DNA of 25,906 nt from IMG/VR virus record IMGVR_UViG_3300009151_005268, positions 1 to 25,906 of that record; one strand, given 5' to 3'. The position numbers were made by a program, and so were the translations under genes. Below are positions 3,152 through 25,906 of the stretch, in pieces. The stretch is from a virus. The stretch's first letter is position 1. Every line of letters begins with the position of its first letter. The notes under the pieces are model-generated. The model saw only the letters and a list, made by a program, of their open reading frames with translations. It made no database searches and was not told where the DNA came from.

Positions 3152-4636
3152 TTATCTTGATTTAAAATTTTCAAAACTTTTTATCAAGTTACCTTGTTTG
3201 TCTAATTTAGTAACATCTTTTGTAGCAATAACTTTATTATCCATTTCTGGAGACTTTGGTTTAAAATGTTCAGCTGGTTCACTCCATTTTAAACTTAAAT
3301 TGAAAGGAACACCTGATAAGTCAGATATAATTTTATTCTTAAACATATCAACATATTTTAATCCTTTATATTGTTCTACCTCACAAACACCAAAGACATT
3401 TGAAATTGAACCAATCCCACCGTGACCACCTGAAACAGTAATCTCATCTTGTCCTAATGAAGTATCTGGATTATAATAACCTAAGTGTTTTTGAAAGTTT
3501 TGTAATAATTCTGTCATATATTTACCTAAATCATTTACAACTTCACCAGTTCTTAATTTAGGAAGATTTTCAATCTCATCCATTTTCTTATATGAACAAA
3601 CTTGAAGTGTTGAACCATATTGAAGTAATATGAAGTTAGGTTCTGAATCTAAAACACCGTCTCTAAAGTCCTTTTCAACAATAGTTCTTGCTCTTAACGC
3701 ATTTGCCCAAGTACCTGTTGGTACAAAAACTAGATCTCCAATTTTTTGATAACCATCTATTTGAAGGTATTGACCATTTTTAAATTGACCAGTAAACTCA
3801 GCTTGTGTATTATAAGTCTTTTTATTAGACATTGAACCTCTAGTTTTCTTTTGCATTTCTCCTAATCTCCATTCAGAATCCTCAATAAAATCTTTCTTTT
3901 CACCTCTTTTAGGTCCACCCATTATAGCATTATGTTCTGGATAAACTTTCTTCATTACATTAAAGATAGAGTAAATAGAAGCATCTGGACAGTTTTCAAT
4001 AACAGATATAATTGTTTTTGAGTCTGAACGTTTTATAAATTGATTAAATGCTGCACCAAACTCTAATCTTCTTTTAGGAGATTTTTTAATTTCTGATAGA
4101 TTAAAATCTAAAAGTCTTTGCCAATCTATTTCATAATCCTGATACTTAGCAGCATCAATCATATCAATTACATCTAATGTAAGTGAGTCTTGTGGAGCAC
4201 CAAGTGCTTGACAAATTGCTTCATATGCAGAAGCAGTTTTTTTCTTTTGTACTGGTGAGTTTTTATATTTTTCTAAATCATCTTCATTGAATAACCCGTG
4301 ATGATCTAAGTAATAATCAATTAAATCATCTCTTTCATCTCCTGGCATGGAAGCAAAATCTAAAACAACATTTATAAGTTTCGGATCTAAAGTTGTGTAT
4401 TTCCAACCTTCAGTATAATTAAGAATGCCATATTTAACAATAGTAAATCCTTTATTAAGTAAGTATTTTTTTACTTCGATCGCGCTAGCAATTCCATCCA
4501 TGTCATCGTGAGTGTAGAGTGCAACAAATTTACCTTTTTTACCTTTTCTTAACCAATAGTCTTCCGATTTCGGAAGTCTAGGTGATGATTCCTCATTGAG
4601 TAATTCAAACTTATTAAATTGTTTTATGTTTTCCAT
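3152..4636 (-). CDS. DHH/DHHA1 family phosphoesterase (RecJ/nanoRNase-like)
   Basis: This 494-residue protein has the DHH superfamily motifs in order: THDDMDG (42-48), VVLDF (90-94), YLDHHG (109-114) and a metal-binding Asp near DAAKYQD (about 157-163). A DHHA1-like Gly-rich loop GGHGG lies at 403-407. Such proteins hydrolyse phosphodiesters of single-stranded nucleic acid, short oligonucleotides or cyclic dinucleotides using Mn2+; which of these applies is not clear. The chain has extra sequence at both ends, each containing the same pattern: IKQFNKF at 4-10 and IKSFENF at 485-491. An LNE tripeptide follows the N-terminal copy (13-15). A promoter-like element ends one base before the ATG, suggesting a leaderless message. 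The amidoligase gene ends 23 bases upstream, and the glycosyltransferase starts two bases after this stop. Confidence 0.85.
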   Translation of the reverse strand: MENIKQFNKFELLNEESSPRLPKSEDYWLRKGKKGKFVALYTHDDMDGIASAIEVKKYLLNKGFTIVKYGILNYTEGWKYTTLDPKLINVVLDFASMPGDERDDLIDYYLDHHGLFNEDDLEKYKNSPVQKKKTASAYEAICQALGAPQDSLTLDVIDMIDAAKYQDYEIDWQRLLDFNLSEIKKSPKRRLEFGAAFNQFIKRSDSKTIISVIENCPDASIYSIFNVMKKVYPEHNAIMGGPKRGEKKDFIEDSEWRLGEMQKKTRGSMSNKKTYNTQAEFTGQFKNGQYLQIDGYQKIGDLVFVPTGTWANALRARTIVEKDFRDGVLDSEPNFILLQYGSTLQVCSYKKMDEIENLPKLRTGEVVNDLGKYMTELLQNFQKHLGYYNPDTSLGQDEITVSGGHGGIGSISNVFGVCEVEQYKGLKYVDMFKNKIISDLSGVPFNLSLKWSEPAEHFKPKSPEMDNKVIATKDVTKLDKQGNLIKSFENFKSR

Positions 4637-16267: not shown

Positions 16268-18460
16268 TTAAGCTAAATTTTTATAAAGACTTGGTGCAGC
16301 ATTAAATGCTTTCTTTCTACCACCAGTTGAATCTGCAACAAGAAGACTATAAGAATTACCCCAACCAGCATTTGCATGATAAATAGCACCAGTTGCATCA
16401 TTTAGTGTTTTAAAATCATTAATAGAACCTGATGTATTATACTGAGTTCTAAATTTACTTGGCATTTCGGCCATTCTTTGTATAAAATATACAACAATAC
16501 AATCTGCGGCAACTTCTATTGTATTAAGTAAATCAGGGTCTGCTACTATTTTGTGTCCTGTCTTTTTTTGTGCTTCTTGGTAACCACTCTTAAATGTCAA
16601 TTGATTAAAACCTCTTCCTCTATATTTATATCCTTCATCCGCAGCATTACCATATTTACCACCATATATTATGTCAAAAAACTCTTTAGGTATTTTTTTA
16701 ATTCTATCAACTTCCGAGTCACTATATTTTCTAAATTTAGAAAATATAGACTTTATTCTACTTGCAGATGTTTTTGCATAAGAGCCTTCATTTCTTGGAA
16801 CAAAAGCACTCTCTTTACTAACAATTGCAAGTATTGCGGCTTGTGTAAATTTATTTGTTATTTGTTTTTTCTTCATTGCTGCTACAATAGCAGCAATGTT
16901 TGCTTGTTTATTTTTAGGTATTGGATATGGTGAACCAGCATCTGTTGAAATAGCAGGATCCGGATTCTCAGGATCAAATCCTTTAATCGAATTTAATGCC
17001 TCAACATCTACAGTGGCATCTTCTTTTAAAAATTCTGCAGATATTTCTTCACTTCCGGCAAACTCATCTTCAACATATTCACTACCAACATCAACACCGT
17101 CATCATATAATAAAGTTTCATCTTCTTGACCAATAATAAATAGGTTACCAAAGTCCGCATTTGAAAATATATCTAATTGCTCTACATTAAAAGTAAACTC
17201 TTGTGTACTTATTATTGTACTTGCAGTTGGACCAGGAACTGAACTTTCTGAAGCACCAGTTACTACACTTGCAGTTGAACCTACTGGTGCATCACTTGGT
17301 GGAACTACCGGAGGTCCATCTGGTTCTGTATATTTAAGATAAATTGCCAACCCATAAGTACCTTCAACTATATTTTGTAAATTTATAATTACATCATCTG
17401 CAAGAGACTTTTTAGTTCCAGTACTTTTACCACTATTAAATGTAATAGTACCTGTGTTATTTGGTACTACTACTTTAGTTTTTGGATTTGTCCAAGGATT
17501 TGGTAATCCATTTAATGTACTATTAGGAATTATATATGTTCCACTTTCGATAAAGGTTATTTTACCTTCAACTTTCTTCTCAATATCACTCAGTGGATTT
17601 ATTACACTCAATATATAGTCATTGCTAGCAGTAGATTGTGTACCAGATTGTGTACCAGATTGTGTACCAGATTGTGTACCAGAAGTTTGAGATGGGAAAA
17701 AGTTATCACCTGCTTCTAAAACCGCTTGGAAATATTTGGATTGATCTGAACTAGCATTAATACCACCTAATTTAAAACGTGAACCTTCATCATAATAACC
17801 CTTTAGATAACTATCTCTTAACTCATCTTCAATACTCATGAAAAGACTAGAGTAGTCACTTCCTTTTAATGTTGATACAGATATTTTTGAACCATATATA
17901 GTTCTATATAACGAATGCATCCAGAAATCAAACCAAGCTTTACCTCCTAAATTTTTAAGTTTTTTAAGTGCCTCAAAAGTAACAAACTCATCACAATTAT
18001 CATTTAAAACCGACTTCAAAATAAATACATCTGTAGGTTGTGATGTTATATGTAGTGCATTTTTATATTGTTGTCCCAAATAAGACATTGTTCCATAAGT
18101 ATATCCGTCAATATAAATTTTAGTATCTGTTACACTATTATCATCGGGAATATATTCATCAACTATAATTGACTTTCTTCTACGATTATCAAATTTATCA
18201 ACAATAGGATTACCATCTACAGGATAAGACCATTCAAATAGTTGTCCTAATGTCGTTACATCAAATCCAGGTATTGTAAAGTTTTCATCTTCATTTCTTG
18301 GATATATTTTTAATGCAGGCATCTTTAATACAAACGGAACAGTAAGTGCAGTAGCAGTTTGTCTTGCTGCTAAATATTGATTTATATTTTCCTGTGATGC
18401 GGCTATCTTTACATCGACTTCTGTATTCCATGCATCAATAAATTCTTGTATCTTTGACAT
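16268..18460 (-). CDS. Tail lysin with C-terminal GH19-like (chitinase/lysozyme) domain
   Basis: Residues 1-378 of this 730-residue protein are a module shared with the hub gene just upstream. Shared landmarks are MSKIQxFID, INQYxAARxTAxA, LEAGDN/IEAGDN, four GTQS repeats (261-276), the SD.xKKxEGxIxF strand, LPxPxTNPxT, and LADxVIINLQ (353-362). An acidic segment EYVEDEFAGSEE lies at 461-472. Residues about 518-730 look like a glycoside hydrolase family 19 domain. AAILAIVSKESAF carries candidate catalytic Glu550, DEGYKYRGRGFNQLT (608-622) carries Glu609 and the hallmark YRGRG, and AIYHANAGWGN follows near the end. It should cut the glycan strands of peptidoglycan at the tail tip. It starts six bases after the hub gene's stop with no promoter of its own. 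Family call firm; virion location inferred from the shared module. Confidence 0.85.
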   Translation of the reverse strand: MSKIQEFIDAWNTEVDVKIAASQENINQYLAARQTATALTVPFVLKMPALKIYPRNEDENFTIPGFDVTTLGQLFEWSYPVDGNPIVDKFDNRRRKSIIVDEYIPDDNSVTDTKIYIDGYTYGTMSYLGQQYKNALHITSQPTDVFILKSVLNDNCDEFVTFEALKKLKNLGGKAWFDFWMHSLYRTIYGSKISVSTLKGSDYSSLFMSIEDELRDSYLKGYYDEGSRFKLGGINASSDQSKYFQAVLEAGDNFFPSQTSGTQSGTQSGTQSGTQSTASNDYILSVINPLSDIEKKVEGKITFIESGTYIIPNSTLNGLPNPWTNPKTKVVVPNNTGTITFNSGKSTGTKKSLADDVIINLQNIVEGTYGLAIYLKYTEPDGPPVVPPSDAPVGSTASVVTGASESSVPGPTASTIISTQEFTFNVEQLDIFSNADFGNLFIIGQEDETLLYDDGVDVGSEYVEDEFAGSEEISAEFLKEDATVDVEALNSIKGFDPENPDPAISTDAGSPYPIPKNKQANIAAIVAAMKKKQITNKFTQAAILAIVSKESAFVPRNEGSYAKTSASRIKSIFSKFRKYSDSEVDRIKKIPKEFFDIIYGGKYGNAADEGYKYRGRGFNQLTFKSGYQEAQKKTGHKIVADPDLLNTIEVAADCIVVYFIQRMAEMPSKFRTQYNTSGSINDFKTLNDATGAIYHANAGWGNSYSLLVADSTGGRKKAFNAAPSLYKNLA
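17633..17683 (-). repeat. Four tandem 12-base coding repeats (SGTQ units)
   Basis: The plus strand shows AGATTGTGTACC four times in a row with no base change, encoding GTQS repeats at residues 260-276 of the GH19 lysin. Identity at the DNA level points to recent slippage expansion. Confidence 0.85.
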
Positions 18461-18466
18461 TATTCA

Positions 18467-21400
18467 TTAAATATTTTTTATAGTTGCTTTTACTTCTTTA
18501 CCATTTTCAGAAACTTCAGTAATTGTAAGTTTAAACGTTTTGCCAGAATTATTCTGAACAAGATATATTTGACCTACTTTGTAAACACTATTTGGTGGAA
18601 CTGCAGTAGATAACTTCGGTTGTACTTGACCAGGTACAACCGGATTTTCATTTTTCTGAGTATTGACCTCAGCTTTAGCAGGTTCGGAATTTGCATCTTT
18701 TTTCAACTCTTCATCTGTTTTACTAAGTTCTTTTCTAACCGCAGTAACTTTTTGTGTTAGATTACCTTGCATCCAAGTATATGATATATCAATAATAACC
18801 CATTCACCAGTTAAACGTTTTTGAGAAACTTCATCATTGGTAACAGTGGATTTCATATTGACAAAGTTTAGTTGTATTTTCATAAACTTATATAAATTGA
18901 AATTTGCATTAGGAAGTTCTAAATCAACAGAAATCCTTGCCATATTATCAAAGTTTACTTTATTCTGTGTTTCTGAATAGTAATATTGTTTATGTACATT
19001 TTCAGTATCCATTTTACCAGAGTATTTTGTACGATAGTTATCTTTAATGCTCTTATCATCAGCCGGAGCACCCTTTAGTATAATACTCTTTGATCCATCT
19101 GATGTCTGTGAATCAACATCAAATACTAAAAATTGTTTTTTTATACTATCATAAACTTTCGATACCGTAAAGTGACCATTATTAAGAGAAGTTTGTGTTG
19201 AATTATTATTTACTCTATATTTGTTAAAAAAGAATGAACTACTATTTTGACTTAAATCATTACTTAATTGTAATTTTACAACCTTTTCACTTTCATCCTT
19301 ATTACTATTTAAGTGACTCAATCCTTTAGAATTTATACCAACATCCGTAGATATATCTCTATTCCACTCTTTTTCTATATCTACATAATTGAAACAGTAA
19401 TAAAAGTCAACATAACCAATAAGAAATGTTGTATCCGAAATATATGAGTGTGAAATAATATCAGACATAAAGGTTCTAAATAACTTACCATTATTTACCC
19501 AATTCATACTATCAGAAGTATTGGTAATATTAGAATTAAAACCTATTTCTAATTCTTTAGATATTTTTTGTAATACCTCAAATGATGTTCCTTTATAACT
19601 TTGAAATCTTATTTTATAAAAGTCTTGAAGATCTAAAGTACCGACTATTGTATATGTTTTACTCTTATTTTCTTGGAAATTTTTTAATTTAAACTTTAAG
19701 TGTATTGATTTAAGATTTTTTGAACCAGAGTTTAAAAATATTTCAAATTTACTGTCATCAAGTGGAAATCCTTTCTTTTTCATAACACCAATTGAATCAA
19801 TAAATACAATTGATACCACAGGTACAAGACCTTCATAATATAGATTTAATGATTTTATATATCTTTGATCTATCTGAACTCCAGCATACCAAAAGAATGG
19901 TGTAAATCCAAGTGCACCCGCCACTTCTGCATTATCCTTTTTATCCTCTAGTGCATCAAATTCAATAGACTTTAACTTAATAGTAGGTTTATCTATTTGT
20001 GCAATTATTGGACGAGTACCTTTTACTTCTATTTCTTTATCACCACCTCTTGACTTATCTTGTGCAATAACATCATCTTCTGGTAAAACTTTTATTGTAA
20101 CCTCGGATGTTTCTACGAGATTTGAATCAGGTATCACCGTAATAACATAATCACCAGGAGCATCAAACTGAATGCCTACAAAATTTACAAAACCGTCTTT
20201 TACTATTTGTTCTACTTCACCTATTATTTCACCAGGTCCACTTTTCTTTTGTAGTTTAATCTTTATTCCTGTAGCATCAAAAGTACTTTGAGTCATACCA
20301 GATTGAGTTGCGGTTAAAGGTGTAGACTGTGTACCTGATTGAGTACCAGATGCCGATGCAGAAACAGGAGTAGGAGCATCAGGATTTTTTGTATATTGTA
20401 ACTTTAATTCAACTCCGTAGTAATAATCTATCATACTTTGTAGATTTATAATTACCTCGTCTGCTAATACTGTTTCATAAGTATCAGGGTAAGATGATGC
20501 ACTTATTTTTTTTGTTTTATAGGTTAATTCTCCATTAGCATCGGTAGTTTCTTGTGACGTTACTTCTCGACCAGTTCTTGGATTAGTAAATGGAGTTGGT
20601 AAGTTAATCAATCTAGAACTAGCACTAACTTGTGGACCTAAATGTGTGAATGAAATAGAACCTTCAATTTTTTTATCATTATCACTTTTAGGATCCTTTA
20701 CAGTTATTTTATAATCACCTGTTTCAAGAACGGATTGTGTGGCTGATGATTGTGTAGCATTTTGTGTCACTGATTGAGTTCCAGACTGTGTACCGGATTG
20801 AGTTCCAGACTGTGTCGCAGATACCGGTGCTGGTAGTTGATAGTTATCACCTGCTTCAATAAATGCGTCATATAAAATTTGATCAGTAGAAAACCACTCT
20901 ATTGGACTATCAGCAACACCATACTGACCATATCTATCTTTAAATTTTTCAATAAAGTCATTATAGTCATGATTAAATTCAGAAAGTGTTTTATAATCTG
21001 ATGTTAATTTTTGTTCTGATTTTAAAAATGTAAGTGCTGATGACATAAACGCATCAAACCACTTTTGTGCACCAAATGATCTAAGATCGTTAATATAATC
21101 TAAGGAATTTTTATATCTATATGTACTCTTTAAAATTTCATATACTGGTTTTGCACCAGTATCTGGATCTTTAAGAACACCAATAACATCAACATATATA
21201 GCACCTTCACCCCCTGAGACATTTGGAAGTATTTGTTTTCCACCTTCAGGATTAGGATAAACAAACTTAAATAAATCACCAACTGTTTTTACACTCGGAT
21301 CTGATTGATAAACATTATTACTATCTGGAGAACTACCGTAGGGCCAAGAACATATTTTACCATAAGTTATTGCAATCGCAGTAGTCCTAGCGGCTTTATA

Positions 21401-21484
21401 TTGATTTATCTTATCAACAAAGGAGTTAAGTACTGGTAGTAACGTTGGCTCAAAATTATCAATAAAAGTTTGTATTTTTGACAT
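18467..21484 (-). CDS. Baseplate hub protein, gp27/gpD-like, with N-terminal module shared with the GH19 lysin
   Basis: Residues 1-366 of this 1005-residue protein are paralogous to the start of the GH19 lysin (see that entry), with GTQS-type repeats at 223-251. A second cluster lies at 379-400. Residues about 405-470 look like an Ig-like or FN3-like strand domain. From about 525 the chain resembles hub proteins of contractile tails: FFWYAGVQID, then SIVFIDSIGVMKKKGFPLDD, and SYKGTSFEVLQKISKELEIGF (629-649). A late LTGEWVIIDISYTWMQGNLTQKVT stretch followed by VRKEL is the usual close of gp27/gpD-like hubs. It would form the ring joining the tube to the spike. It has a promoter-like element 20 bases upstream and is first in the minus-strand virion block. 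The hub call rests on pattern resemblance, supported by the neighbouring spike and lysin. Confidence 0.65.
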   Translation of the reverse strand: MSKIQTFIDNFEPTLLPVLNSFVDKINQYKAARTTAIAITYGKICSWPYGSSPDSNNVYQSDPSVKTVGDLFKFVYPNPEGGKQILPNVSGGEGAIYVDVIGVLKDPDTGAKPVYEILKSTYRYKNSLDYINDLRSFGAQKWFDAFMSSALTFLKSEQKLTSDYKTLSEFNHDYNDFIEKFKDRYGQYGVADSPIEWFSTDQILYDAFIEAGDNYQLPAPVSATQSGTQSGTQSGTQSVTQNATQSSATQSVLETGDYKITVKDPKSDNDKKIEGSISFTHLGPQVSASSRLINLPTPFTNPRTGREVTSQETTDANGELTYKTKKISASSYPDTYETVLADEVIINLQSMIDYYYGVELKLQYTKNPDAPTPVSASASGTQSGTQSTPLTATQSGMTQSTFDATGIKIKLQKKSGPGEIIGEVEQIVKDGFVNFVGIQFDAPGDYVITVIPDSNLVETSEVTIKVLPEDDVIAQDKSRGGDKEIEVKGTRPIIAQIDKPTIKLKSIEFDALEDKKDNAEVAGALGFTPFFWYAGVQIDQRYIKSLNLYYEGLVPVVSIVFIDSIGVMKKKGFPLDDSKFEIFLNSGSKNLKSIHLKFKLKNFQENKSKTYTIVGTLDLQDFYKIRFQSYKGTSFEVLQKISKELEIGFNSNITNTSDSMNWVNNGKLFRTFMSDIISHSYISDTTFLIGYVDFYYCFNYVDIEKEWNRDISTDVGINSKGLSHLNSNKDESEKVVKLQLSNDLSQNSSSFFFNKYRVNNNSTQTSLNNGHFTVSKVYDSIKKQFLVFDVDSQTSDGSKSIILKGAPADDKSIKDNYRTKYSGKMDTENVHKQYYYSETQNKVNFDNMARISVDLELPNANFNLYKFMKIQLNFVNMKSTVTNDEVSQKRLTGEWVIIDISYTWMQGNLTQKVTAVRKELSKTDEELKKDANSEPAKAEVNTQKNENPVVPGQVQPKLSTAVPPNSVYKVGQIYLVQNNSGKTFKLTITEVSENGKEVKATIKNI
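20732..20818 (-). repeat. Diverged TQS/GTQS repeats in the hub gene
   Basis: This stretch encodes about six TQS-containing units at residues 223-251. A second, shorter cluster lies at about 20285-20353. Codons differ between units, unlike the exact copies in the lysin gene. Confidence 0.7.
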
Positions 21485-24083: not shown

Positions 24084-24743
24084 TTACTTATTTTTTAGTA
24101 TAATCTTATCAATCATTCCATACTTTTTGGCATCTTGTGCAGTCATCCAGTAATCTCGATCACCATCTTTATATACTTTATCTAAAAGTTGACCTGTATT
24201 ATCAGAGATTATTTCATATAATTCTTTTTTCAAAGAGATTATTTCTTTTGTTTCAATTTCTAAATCAGATGCTTGAGAGTATCCAACATATGATAGTGGT
24301 TGGTGTATCATTGTTCTACTTCTTTTAAGAGCCATTCTCTTACCTTTTGTACCAGAACATAGAATTACGGCAGCCATTGAAGCAGCGAGTCCCGTATTGA
24401 TTGTAACAATGTCTGGTTTAACAAAGTCCATTACATCAAGTAAACCTAATCCAGTATAAACTGAACCACCTGGTGAATCAATATAGATTGATATGTCTTC
24501 ATCACTTTCAGATTCTAAATAAAGAAGTTGTGCTTTGATTATATTTGTAACATATTCATCAACTTCAGTAGATAAAAAGATAATCCTATCTTCTAATAAC
24601 TTTGAAAAAACATCAACAGACATTCCATTACTCTCTAATAACATAGGAGTACTGTTTTTTCGTTGTAAGTGTTTAAAGTAATTGTCTTGAAAGGTACTTG
24701 AAATAGATTGACTTCGTAGAAATTTTTGTAAGTCGTTTTTCAT
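24084..24743 (-). CDS. clpP: ClpP-family serine protease (S14)
   Basis: This 219-residue protein has the full Ser-His-Asp triad: GLAASMAAVIL with Ser122, MIHQPL with His147, and DRDYWM with Asp197. The spacing equals that of bacterial ClpP. IYIDSPGGSVYTGL (86-99) gives the oxyanion-hole region, and TAQDAKKYGMIDKI (201-214) the usual C-terminal signature. The first 30 residues are slightly longer than in host enzymes. ClpP forms a barrel that degrades proteins fed by a Clp ATPase; no ATPase is encoded here. It may borrow the host's, or act as a head maturation protease, as S14 relatives do in some phages. A weak TATAAT-type element lies about 23 bases upstream, in the 60-base divergent gap with the HAD gene. 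Confidence 0.9.
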   Translation of the reverse strand: MKNDLQKFLRSQSISSTFQDNYFKHLQRKNSTPMLLESNGMSVDVFSKLLEDRIIFLSTEVDEYVTNIIKAQLLYLESESDEDISIYIDSPGGSVYTGLGLLDVMDFVKPDIVTINTGLAASMAAVILCSGTKGKRMALKRSRTMIHQPLSYVGYSQASDLEIETKEIISLKKELYEIISDNTGQLLDKVYKDGDRDYWMTAQDAKKYGMIDKIILKNK

Positions 24744-24803: not shown

Positions 24804-25454
24804 ATGAAGTATTTAAAGATTTTCGAGACATTTGATAGAAATGACACATTATACGTGTTCGATTTTGATGATACTCTTGTAAACACGCCAGAATTTGAAG
24901 GGTTTGTTATTGAATACTTAACAGAAGATGTTTCTATAAAAGAAATAGTAGATAAATCAACTAAAAGTATTGGTGTAAATAAGTCAGATTTAAAATGGCA
25001 AGATGGTAGAATCTATATAGAAGATCCAAGTGAGAATATTGAAATAAAAGGAAATTGGGTTAGAAAAGGTAAAAGAGTTTATCTTACTGCACCAGATATA
25101 TTTGGTACAACTGATTTAAGTTTACCAACAGAAACATTGGAACTAGTAGATTTTTATAATTCAGTAGAGAATAAATGTATAGTAACTGCTAGACCTGAAC
25201 AAATTAGATTTAAAATTGAGATGGTAATGAAAAAACTTGGAATTGAATATCCTAAATATGGACTACATATGTATCCTTATAAAAATCATTATAATGCAGG
25301 TGGTTGGAAAGGCGAAAAGATTGTTGAGTTAGTTGAGAAAACTGGATTTAATAAAGTCATATTCTACGATGATAATATAAAGTATTTAAAAGGAGCTACT
25401 AAAGTTGTTAAGAGTAAACTACCGAATCTTGATTACAAGTATGTAAAAGTGTAA
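24804..25454 (+). CDS. HAD-superfamily phosphatase
   Basis: This 216-residue protein has HAD motif I FDFDDTLV (19-26, nucleophile Asp20, acid/base Asp22), motif II VTARPE (about residues 130-135), and a late acidic pair FYDDN near 189-193, with a Lys in between. The set suits a nucleotide or nucleic-acid phosphatase of the polynucleotide-kinase/RNA-repair HAD kind, but the substrate is not readable. Its first ten residues, MKYLKIFETF, lie ahead of the HAD core. They carry the LKxFxxF pattern at exactly the positions (4-10) where the DHH protein has IKQFNKF. It is divergent from clpP. No terminator is seen between it and the acidic-protein gene, which has its own promoter-like element. Confidence 0.8.
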   Translation: MKYLKIFETFDRNDTLYVFDFDDTLVNTPEFEGFVIEYLTEDVSIKEIVDKSTKSIGVNKSDLKWQDGRIYIEDPSENIEIKGNWVRKGKRVYLTAPDIFGTTDLSLPTETLELVDFYNSVENKCIVTARPEQIRFKIEMVMKKLGIEYPKYGLHMYPYKNHYNAGGWKGEKIVELVEKTGFNKVIFYDDNIKYLKGATKVVKSKLPNLDYKYVKV

Positions 25455-25470
25455 AAAAGAGGTTTAATAA

Positions 25471-25484
25471 TTTAATATATAATA
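25471..25484 (+). promoter_or_regulatory. Promoter-like element TTTAATATATAATA of the acidic-protein gene
   Basis: An exact copy of the 14-mer, 18 bases before the ATG at 25503, followed by an A-rich leader. Confidence 0.55.
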
Positions 25485-25502
25485 AAAAAATAATAAACAT
25501 AT

Positions 25503-25808
25503 ATGAAAACTAAAGTTGAAGTACTTGGATATGAAATCGAAATTGAAGAAGTTGATGGTGTTGTAACTGTTAAAGCTGAATTAGATGGTGAAACTGTTGA
25601 AGAATTCACTCTTGAAGCTCCTGAAGAAGGACAAGGTCAAGAAGAATCTGAAGATGGTGTTAAAGCATTTAAAGATTTTGATGGTCAAGGTGAAGAAGAA
25701 GATTTCGGAGACGAAGAATCTGAAGGTGAAGAATCTGAAGAAGAAGATGAGGACGAAGAAGAAGGTAAAGCACTAGAATCTTTTCAATCTTTTTTCAATA
25801 AAAGATAA
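25503..25808 (+). CDS. Small, very acidic protein, possible prohead core/scaffold component (gp67-like in character)
   Basis: This 101-residue protein has a short beta-rich N-terminus (1-38) and then an almost purely Glu/Asp/Gly/Ser tail (40-88), broken by VKAFKDFD (53-60). It ends in ALESFQSFFNKR (90-101). T4 gp67, a small prohead core protein, likewise has an extremely acidic C-terminal half, but there is no alignable identity, so the comparison is one of character only. Both hydrophobic islands fit the [ILV](K/E)xFxxF pattern found at the ends of the HAD and DHH proteins. It is a single-gene unit with a virion-type promoter-like element and a strong terminator, which suggests high late expression. 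Alternatives are a DNA mimic or a chaperone-like acidic protein. Confidence 0.65.
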   Translation: MKTKVEVLGYEIEIEEVDGVVTVKAELDGETVEEFTLEAPEEGQGQEESEDGVKAFKDFDGQGEEEDFGDEESEGEESEEEDEDEEEGKALESFQSFFNKR

Positions 25809-25812
25809 TAAG

Positions 25813-25838
25813 AAAGAGGATTTAGTCCTCTTTTTTTA
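25813..25838 (+). terminator. Intrinsic terminator after the acidic-protein gene
   Basis: AAAGAGGA-TTTAG-TCCTCTTT is a perfect 8-base stem with a 5-base loop, followed by a T-run. It begins four bases after the stop codon. Confidence 0.85.
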
Positions 25839-25847
25839 TAAATGAAA

Positions 25848-25861
25848 TTTAATATATAATA
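25848..25861 (+). promoter_or_regulatory. Promoter-like element TTTAATATATAATA of the last gene
   Basis: An exact copy of the 14-mer, 17 bases before the ATG at 25879. This is the virion-type spacing. Confidence 0.5.
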
Positions 25862-25878
25862 AAAAATATTATAATACT

Positions 25879-25906
25879 ATGTTATTAAAATTTAATAATT
25901 TCATCA
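25879..25906 (+). CDS. Start of a further gene, cut by the window end
   Basis: Nine codons are visible (MLLKFNNFI). The start is supported by an exact promoter-like element 17 bases upstream and by the terminator of the previous gene just before it. The residues LKFNNF again give an FxxF near the N-terminus, a one-residue variant of the pattern in the HAD and DHH proteins. Nothing can be said about function. Confidence 0.5.

Follow-up and report, generated by a model that had tools for sequence, protein, structure and literature searches.

The window, as the whole stretch of DNA analysed here is called, comprised the complete 25.9-kb IMG/VR record IMGVR_UViG_3300009151_005268 (25,906 nt) and encoded three proteins with a short N-terminal tag: a DHH protein and two HAD proteins. 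It was compared with nine relatives searched in full, i.e. five full genomes (W01 = LR756501, W02 = LR756502, W03 = LR745206, W04 = LR756504 and W05 = LR756500) and four long IMG/VR contigs (G001–G004). The first HAD-family protein, HAD1 (216 aa; 24804..25454, plus strand), had a weak match to phrog_415, a phage polynucleotide kinase family (E 5.8e-6), and orthologues in G001, G002, G004, W02, W03 and W04; it began with the tag MKYLKIFETF (24804..24833, plus strand), which scored 12.4 with the matrix described below. Its residues 6–8, IFE, fitted [LI]xE; distant orthologues did not keep IFE, and a processing site at this place is doubtful. The acidic protein between HAD1 and HAD2 (101 aa; 25503..25808, plus strand; orthologues in W02, W03 and G001–G004) had no N-terminal tag and contained an internal VKAFKDF (25659..25679, plus strand), appearing as VKGFKDF, VQSFKDF, VQGFDEF or VQGFEDF in orthologues, and a C-terminal LESFQSF (25773..25793, plus strand), conserved as LESFQ[SA]F[FIV]. 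The last gene, HAD2 (25879..25906, plus strand), was a truncated second HAD-like gene. The original prediction had counted LKFNNF at its start as a further copy of the motif; it is indeed present (MLLKFNNFI..., from 25879) but falls outside the strict pattern, though the orthologue in an IMG/VR contig reads MLLKFNNFIKESVSGKGTLLFYAFDWDDNIL and the full-length orthologue (MLLKFNNFIKES...) has a typical tag. The [ILV]xE site of HAD2 was present and conserved among orthologues, and the gene order HAD1 - acidic protein - HAD2 was conserved in relatives.

The DHH-family protein (494 aa; 3152..4636, minus strand; orthologues L005–L013, with 53–95% identity in the closer IMG/VR relatives) combined an N-terminal tag, MENIKQFNKFELLNE (4592..4636, minus strand; score 12.9), with a similar C-terminal motif, IKSFENF (3164..3184, minus strand), which was kept as LI[KR][SN]FE[NS]F in L005–L009. 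Its family was named from a Pfam DHH match (E 1.7e-4) of one member of alignment A2, which includes the W03 member of the window's DHH family. The LNE at residues 13–15 (4592..4600, minus strand), proposed earlier as a cutting point, remained a good candidate for a prohead protease site: orthologues read LNE, IKE, ILE, INE or VNE, i.e. [ILV]xE was kept while the middle residue varied. LKIFETF, IKQFNKF, IKSFENF, VKAFKDF and LESFQSF all translated exactly where the original prediction had placed them. Searches of PDB sequences with the HAD and DHH proteins gave no match. Elsewhere in the window (16268–21484), two adjacent large ORFs had alike N-termini (MSKIQ[ET]FID...) and GTQSGTQS tandem linkers, and one of them (730 aa) showed a weak GH19 chitinase-like match.

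The UvsW protein of the window was 76% identical to those of LR756502 (642 kb) and LR745206 (635 kb), 52% to that of LR756504 (636 kb) and 45% to that of LR756501 (735 kb). The window represents part of the genome of a T4-type huge phage, kin of the 634–735 kb putative Mahaphage genomes. The four complete genomes of greatest length in Al-Shayeb et al. 2020 measure 634, 636, 642 and 735 kb and belong to the Mahaphage clade, in which Bacteroidetes are the predicted hosts of the genomes above 634 kb (PMC7162821). The G+C content of the genomes was 24–32%. ORFs were called with a simple caller (ATG starts, longest first) and protein families were clustered on the part of each sequence from residue 21 to the end (the body), which left the N-terminus as the only region that different families might share. 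The window fragment contained no head genes, and the capsid and protease genes were read in the nine relatives.

The tag occupied about 10–15 residues of the form [ILV]-[KR]-x-[FY]-x-x-[FY], with [ILV]-x-E nearby in about 40%; examples from the huge phages include MKYLKIFETF, MENIKQFNKFELLNEE, MIKKYIQFINEA and MKHLKTYKIFES. The excess of the motif at N-termini over shuffled sequences, the comparison set by the original prediction, proved to be very large. The window itself had 2 strict N-terminal matches, where the rate in protein interiors predicts 0.03, and strict [ILV]KxFxxF starting within the first 12 residues was found 19 times in LR756502, 24 in LR756501, 16 in LR745206 and 24 in LR756504, with 0.36, 0.47, 0.76 and 0.46 expected, respectively. 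Shuffling by column or within proteins, with each family represented by one protein, did not remove the excess. The loose motif was present in 83, 66, 61 and 64 families of W02, W03, W01 and W04 versus 18, 16, 13 and 13 in shuffles preserving column composition, and the full motif K.[FY]..[FY][ILVF].E occurred 8, 10, 14 and 10 times in the same order versus 0.3–0.5 when shuffled. The earlier statement that the copies lie at termini therefore holds for the N-terminus, where the excess is far above chance, but VKAFKDF is internal and the C-terminal enrichment is modest.

A scoring matrix was built from the huge-phage tags only, i.e. trained without T4, and applied with a threshold of 10. It marked 81, 89, 73, 59 and 28 proteins in W01 to W05 (0.8–2.2 expected), belonging to 71, 86, 69, 57 and 24 body-unrelated families; with leave-one-genome-out matrices the numbers were 75, 80, 71, 52 and 26. 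Tagged proteins made up 7–10% of the total in the four largest genomes and 5% in W05, and a short variant of the tag, MKHLKxYNES, was found in a further 10, 32 and 30 proteins of W01, W02 and W03. Of the ORFs in 80 new IMG/VR loci, 73 (40 families) were without homologues in the genomes used for training; 16 of these (9 families) were tagged, with an expectation of 0.00. A MAFFT alignment of 80 mutually unrelated tagged proteins had an informative consensus solely at the start, MKxxKxFxxFxNE. The [ILV]xE triplet stood near about 41% of the tags versus 19% of the untagged N-termini in the full genomes; in the IMG/VR relatives of the window the difference was small (24% versus 21%). It ended at tag position +8 (in the T4 register) or +6, with E at +8 enriched 2.9–7.8 times in the huge-phage tags. 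Codons at the tag positions followed genome-wide usage, therefore it is the peptide that is selected. The tag signal is thus real, strong and genome-wide.

The distribution of tags over functions was uneven. Among 84 homologues of T4 core proteins (including polymerase, clamp loader, helicases, UvsX, UvsW, SSB, nrdA, terminase, sheath, portal and topoisomerase) five scored as tagged, namely four gp46 and one RNA ligase. The gp46/SbcC hits were rejected as false positives of the matrix: GYKSFG is the start of the SMC domain. Tags were absent from replication, packaging (terminase, portal) and tail proteins and present in families of RNA ligase, tRNA nucleotidyltransferase, PNK 3'-phosphatase, 2H-phosphoesterase, NUDIX and DHH proteins, GH25 and GH108 lysins, methyltransferases and CoaE, while most tagged proteins had no assigned function. 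Identification of one tagged 2H protein as the anti-CBASS protein Acb1 was discarded, 2'-5' RNA ligase (PF13563) fitting better (1e-11 versus 1e-6). The RNA ligase started with a tag in W03 (MKLFKYIEFINENSKNEYSIPSYEEA) and, just below the threshold, in W02 (MKKLHRYNSFIKES...), and directly at its domain in W01 (MNKYYIPTYREC) and W04 (MIEKFHIPSYEEA); likewise, the tRNA nucleotidyltransferase and HAD2 were tagged in some genomes and began at the domain in others. In orthologous pairs of W02 and W03, both members were tagged in 19 families (2.2 expected) and one alone in 16. The tag is an add-on to accessory proteins, present or missing among orthologues.

No special promoter class was found for the tagged genes. 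The element TAATATATA, enriched 19–30 times in the 60 bases preceding genes in the five genomes tested, did not single them out; it also occurred upstream of capsid and protease genes, with an example in the window at 25473–25482, and is probably the main promoter of the window's phage and its relatives.

C-terminal copies of the motif were modestly enriched in W01 (15 versus 6.5), G001 (6 versus 1.1) and G002 (6 versus 0.9), with none beyond shuffles in W03 and W04. Two of them were strictly conserved within their families (LI[KR][SN]FE[NS]F of the DHH protein and LESFQ[SA]F of the acidic protein), and by analogy these copies may be C-terminal versions of the tag; C-terminal processing is undergone by Alt and gp21 of T4 (PMC9026906). 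Other terminal peptides were also recorded. In the 735-kb LR756501, the hexapeptide DPYGEE (consensus [LI]DPYGEExW) was present in 104–106 copies in 65 body-unrelated families (L151–L187, e.g. L151:5130-5426) versus a maximum of 3 families in the shuffled proteome; it often ended two residues short of the stop, which then followed the W. DPYGEE had 48 different codings and is therefore selected as a peptide. The other genomes did not have it among their top peptides, and no description of it was found in the literature. In LR756500, at least 13 proteins ended in NADDFGFFDN or a close variant (L094–L118, e.g. L094:13446-14282); 10 of them were above the tag threshold and most others had a variant such as MKFILEYKVF, so that NADDFGFFDN is a second, C-terminal motif on tagged proteins of this genome. 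In LR756504, five tagged proteins had an acidic stretch of the S[ED]xWDDEE type right after the tag (L190:7163-7552, L191:2693-3121 and others), and six small proteins ended near RKSRIE.

The internal head proteins IPI, IPII and IPIII of T4 carry an N-terminal capsid-targeting sequence (CTS), and the original prediction had pointed to its likeness to the motif. This likeness was borne out: the termini exceeded shuffles, and the huge-phage matrix recovered the T4 internal proteins, ranking gp61.1 (MKTFKEFIKE) first, IPIII second, IPII third and IPI fourth among 259 T4 ORFs (chance of the three named proteins among the top four, 1.4e-6). The other T4 head proteins, Alt, gp21, 22, 23, 24, 67 and 68, scored below zero; Alt, gp24, gp67 and gp68 are core proteins without the motif, therefore untagged does not mean outside the head. 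Mutagenesis has assigned residues 4 and 7 of the T4 CTS to targeting and residues 8 and 10 to processing, and the T4 prohead protease cleaves after L/I-x-E (PMC9026906); IPI is injected and acts against restriction (PMC3012670, PMC9958956). The most constant positions of the huge-phage tag, the aromatic pair, which is part of the motif definition, correspond to T4 residues 4 and 7, and its +6 and +8 positions ([ILV] and E) to residues 8 and 10. The huge-phage sequences thus have a short N-terminal motif common to otherwise unrelated proteins, matching the IP CTS with aromatics at T4 positions 4 and 7, and, in the nine relatives, a T4-type head encoded together with a gp21-type protease. The T4 protein gp61.1 (L220:18966-19130; 54 aa, MKTFKEFIKEDM), which outscored the known internal proteins, is predicted from its sequence to be packaged; no report of it in the T4 virion was found in the literature.

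A gp23-type capsid protein and a gp21-type S77 protease were encoded by adjacent genes in all nine relatives, in the order portal, protease, capsid protein. The protease matched PF03420 with E 2e-12 to 2e-4 (above the curated cut-off in LR756500 only), and its motifs G-E-[FL]-[DN]-H-P and SSR aligned with T4 gp21, i.e. both the His and the Ser motif were conserved. The ClpP-type protease of the window (24084–24743) was considered as the prohead protease and rejected, the relatives having the S77 protease beside the capsid gene; PHROGs labels its family as head maturation protease, and the window's ClpP probably has another task. The S77 protease formed the N-terminal part of a protein of 632–807 aa, whose remainder was acidic and scaffold-like, with about 9–15 tandem 14-residue repeats (degenerate in LR756500). 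The repeat consensus, [NS]IxYSEY[IL]AEN[LV]DK, matches the core of the tag (YQEFIAE in the T4 CTS). Of 89 repeat units, 87 had Y at +2, 88 had Y at +5, all had I, L or V at +6, 85 had A at +7 and all had E at +8. Since the extraction pattern itself demanded an aromatic at +2 and +5, [ILV] at +6, [AGS] at +7 and E at +8, the information lies in the near-fixed Y at +2 and +5, in the A at +7 and in those conserved columns that the pattern did not cover. The protease-scaffold protein contained 10–14 copies of [FY]xx[FY][ILVM]xE, with no other protein of the respective genome exceeding 7, and was unsurpassed in 8 of the 9 genomes, tying for first place in W05 with its degenerate repeats; 9–15 copies of the core were also present in 78 of 80 IMG/VR relatives. 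No tag core was found in T4 gp22, gp67 and gp68. The likeness of tag and repeat owes partly to a shared predicted cleavage site, but the aromatic pair is not simply protease specificity, because the predicted sites of the capsid protein (FHSINE|N, HQMNE|N) and at the protease N-terminus (LIVE, LIRE) lack it. AlphaFold2 models of the protease-scaffold protein were of low confidence (mean pLDDT 44 and 56); the sole part used, with caution, was the continuous helix drawn over the repeats (residues 240–453, pLDDT about 50–74) in an otherwise poor model. The original prediction had assigned the docking role to the acidic protein of the window, which is conserved and has two FxxF elements, yet nothing ties it to the head; with its tag core repeated about 10 times, the protease-scaffold fusion is the better docking candidate. 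Four small tagged proteins (L038:294-539, L071:15409-15912, L080:5826-6290, L084:2785-3084) had NASxxAGMGxV directly after the tag, a sequence that also stands just past the predicted major capsid cleavage site (SINE|NAYVNASNVAGMG), and apparently mimic the mature N-arm of the capsid protein.

We regard it as highly probable that the N-terminal motif is a CTS of the T4 internal-protein type in greatly expanded use, whose cargo would be co-packed, cut and ejected with the DNA. During prohead assembly, tagged proteins would join the inner core, the tag packing against or among the scaffold repeats via its aromatic pair; docking would probably be a mimicry of these repeats, with the tag joining as one more of them. 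The protease would then cleave after [ILV]-x-E in the scaffold, the capsid protein and many of the tags, freeing the cargo within the head, and the ejected proteins could act at once, e.g. in RNA repair or against host defence. In the window, the predicted cargo would consist of the DHH protein, HAD1 and the truncated HAD2. Probably, the largest phages take dozens of ready-made enzymes into the cell in this way. With somewhat less than even confidence, the proposal may be extended to heads preloaded with about 60–120 different proteins, in which the tag is a single scaffold repeat, the cargo co-assembles, one and the same cleavage frees it and breaks down the scaffold, and about 12 residues suffice to turn any gene into cargo.

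It seems improbable that the tag sends proteins to another shared place or partner unrelated to the head, such as a membrane, the replication compartment or a host factor: a short amphipathic N-terminal motif would fit such roles and a clear cleavage site is present in a minority of tags, but the matrix specifically recovered the packaged internal proteins of T4, the tag shares its register with the prohead scaffold repeat, and no tags stand on the replication proteins, the ones that a replication compartment would be expected to contain. Mere ancestry, i.e. one expanded gene family that diverged past recognition, might account for the many MKHLKxYKIFES proteins of like size in LR756502 and LR745206 and for the adjacency of some tagged genes beyond expectation (26 pairs versus 7.5 in LR756501). 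However, the bodies of tagged proteins gave matches to Pfam families unrelated to each other (RNA ligase, PolyA_pol, PNK3P, GH25, CoaE, methyltransferases) and orthologues occur both with and without a tag; we give this origin a very low probability, and tags on proteins of unrelated known folds largely refute it.

The lowest probability, close to nil, is left for an effect of base composition or of a translation-start signal yielding K/F/Y-rich N-termini in AT-rich genomes. The G+C content of 24–32% would favour such an effect and column shuffles do yield some matches, but these amounted to 13–18 loose matches versus 61–83 observed and 0.3–0.5 full-motif matches versus 8–14 observed in W01–W04; moreover, synonymous codons vary in the tags as elsewhere and the core genes have no tag. 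The explanation by base composition or start-codon context was thus refuted by the column-preserving shuffles and codon usage.

As of 2021, no megaphage had been brought into culture (PMC9723777). Should the tag function as a CTS, the virion cargo of the largest phages would become readable from sequence, and dozens of hypothetical proteins per genome would gain a name, that of delivered protein. The cargo list leans to RNA repair, nucleotide enzymes, lysins and proteins of no assigned function, which may come into play within minutes of infection. The findings also suggest a way in which a CTS may be recognized, by imitating a scaffold repeat. No paper linking huge phages with capsid targeting was found in the literature search. 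As read from the genomes, the signal is best explained by a T4-type CTS system in greatly enlarged form in huge phages.

Compared with the T4 CTS, the huge-phage tag is likewise N-terminal, about 10 residues long, with the aromatic pair at 4/7 and [ILV] and E at 8/10, and it stands on otherwise diverse proteins in genomes encoding a gp21-type protease. The differences lie in scale, since 6 of 259 T4 ORFs were above the threshold (at least 2 of unknown status) versus 28–89 proteins in the huge phages, in the cargo, which in the huge phages would include enzymes, and in the scaffold, which forms one protein with the protease and contains the tag core repeatedly, in contrast to the core-free gp22, gp67 and gp68 of T4. 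The fusion shares with T4 gp21 and with the protein of Tenacibaculum phage PTm1, also annotated as a scaffold-protease fusion, the S77 domain, the conserved His and Ser motifs and the order portal-protease-capsid, but differs in its length of 632–807 aa and, in most genomes, 10–15 tandem 14-residue repeats. PTm1 (225 kb) had 4 tagged ORFs out of 308 and no protein with more than two core copies; heavy tagging is therefore not general among T4-like phages (6/259 in T4, 4/308 in PTm1). The propeptides of SPN3US/phiKZ-type ejection proteins and the signal of DarB in P1 are also N-terminal sequences by which proteins enter the head to be ejected later (PMC5694885, PMC9024508). The SPN3US propeptides, however, are mostly longer than 100 residues, in contrast to the short huge-phage tag, and the Dar proteins of P1 have no common consensus, while the huge phages have one short consensus on dozens of proteins.
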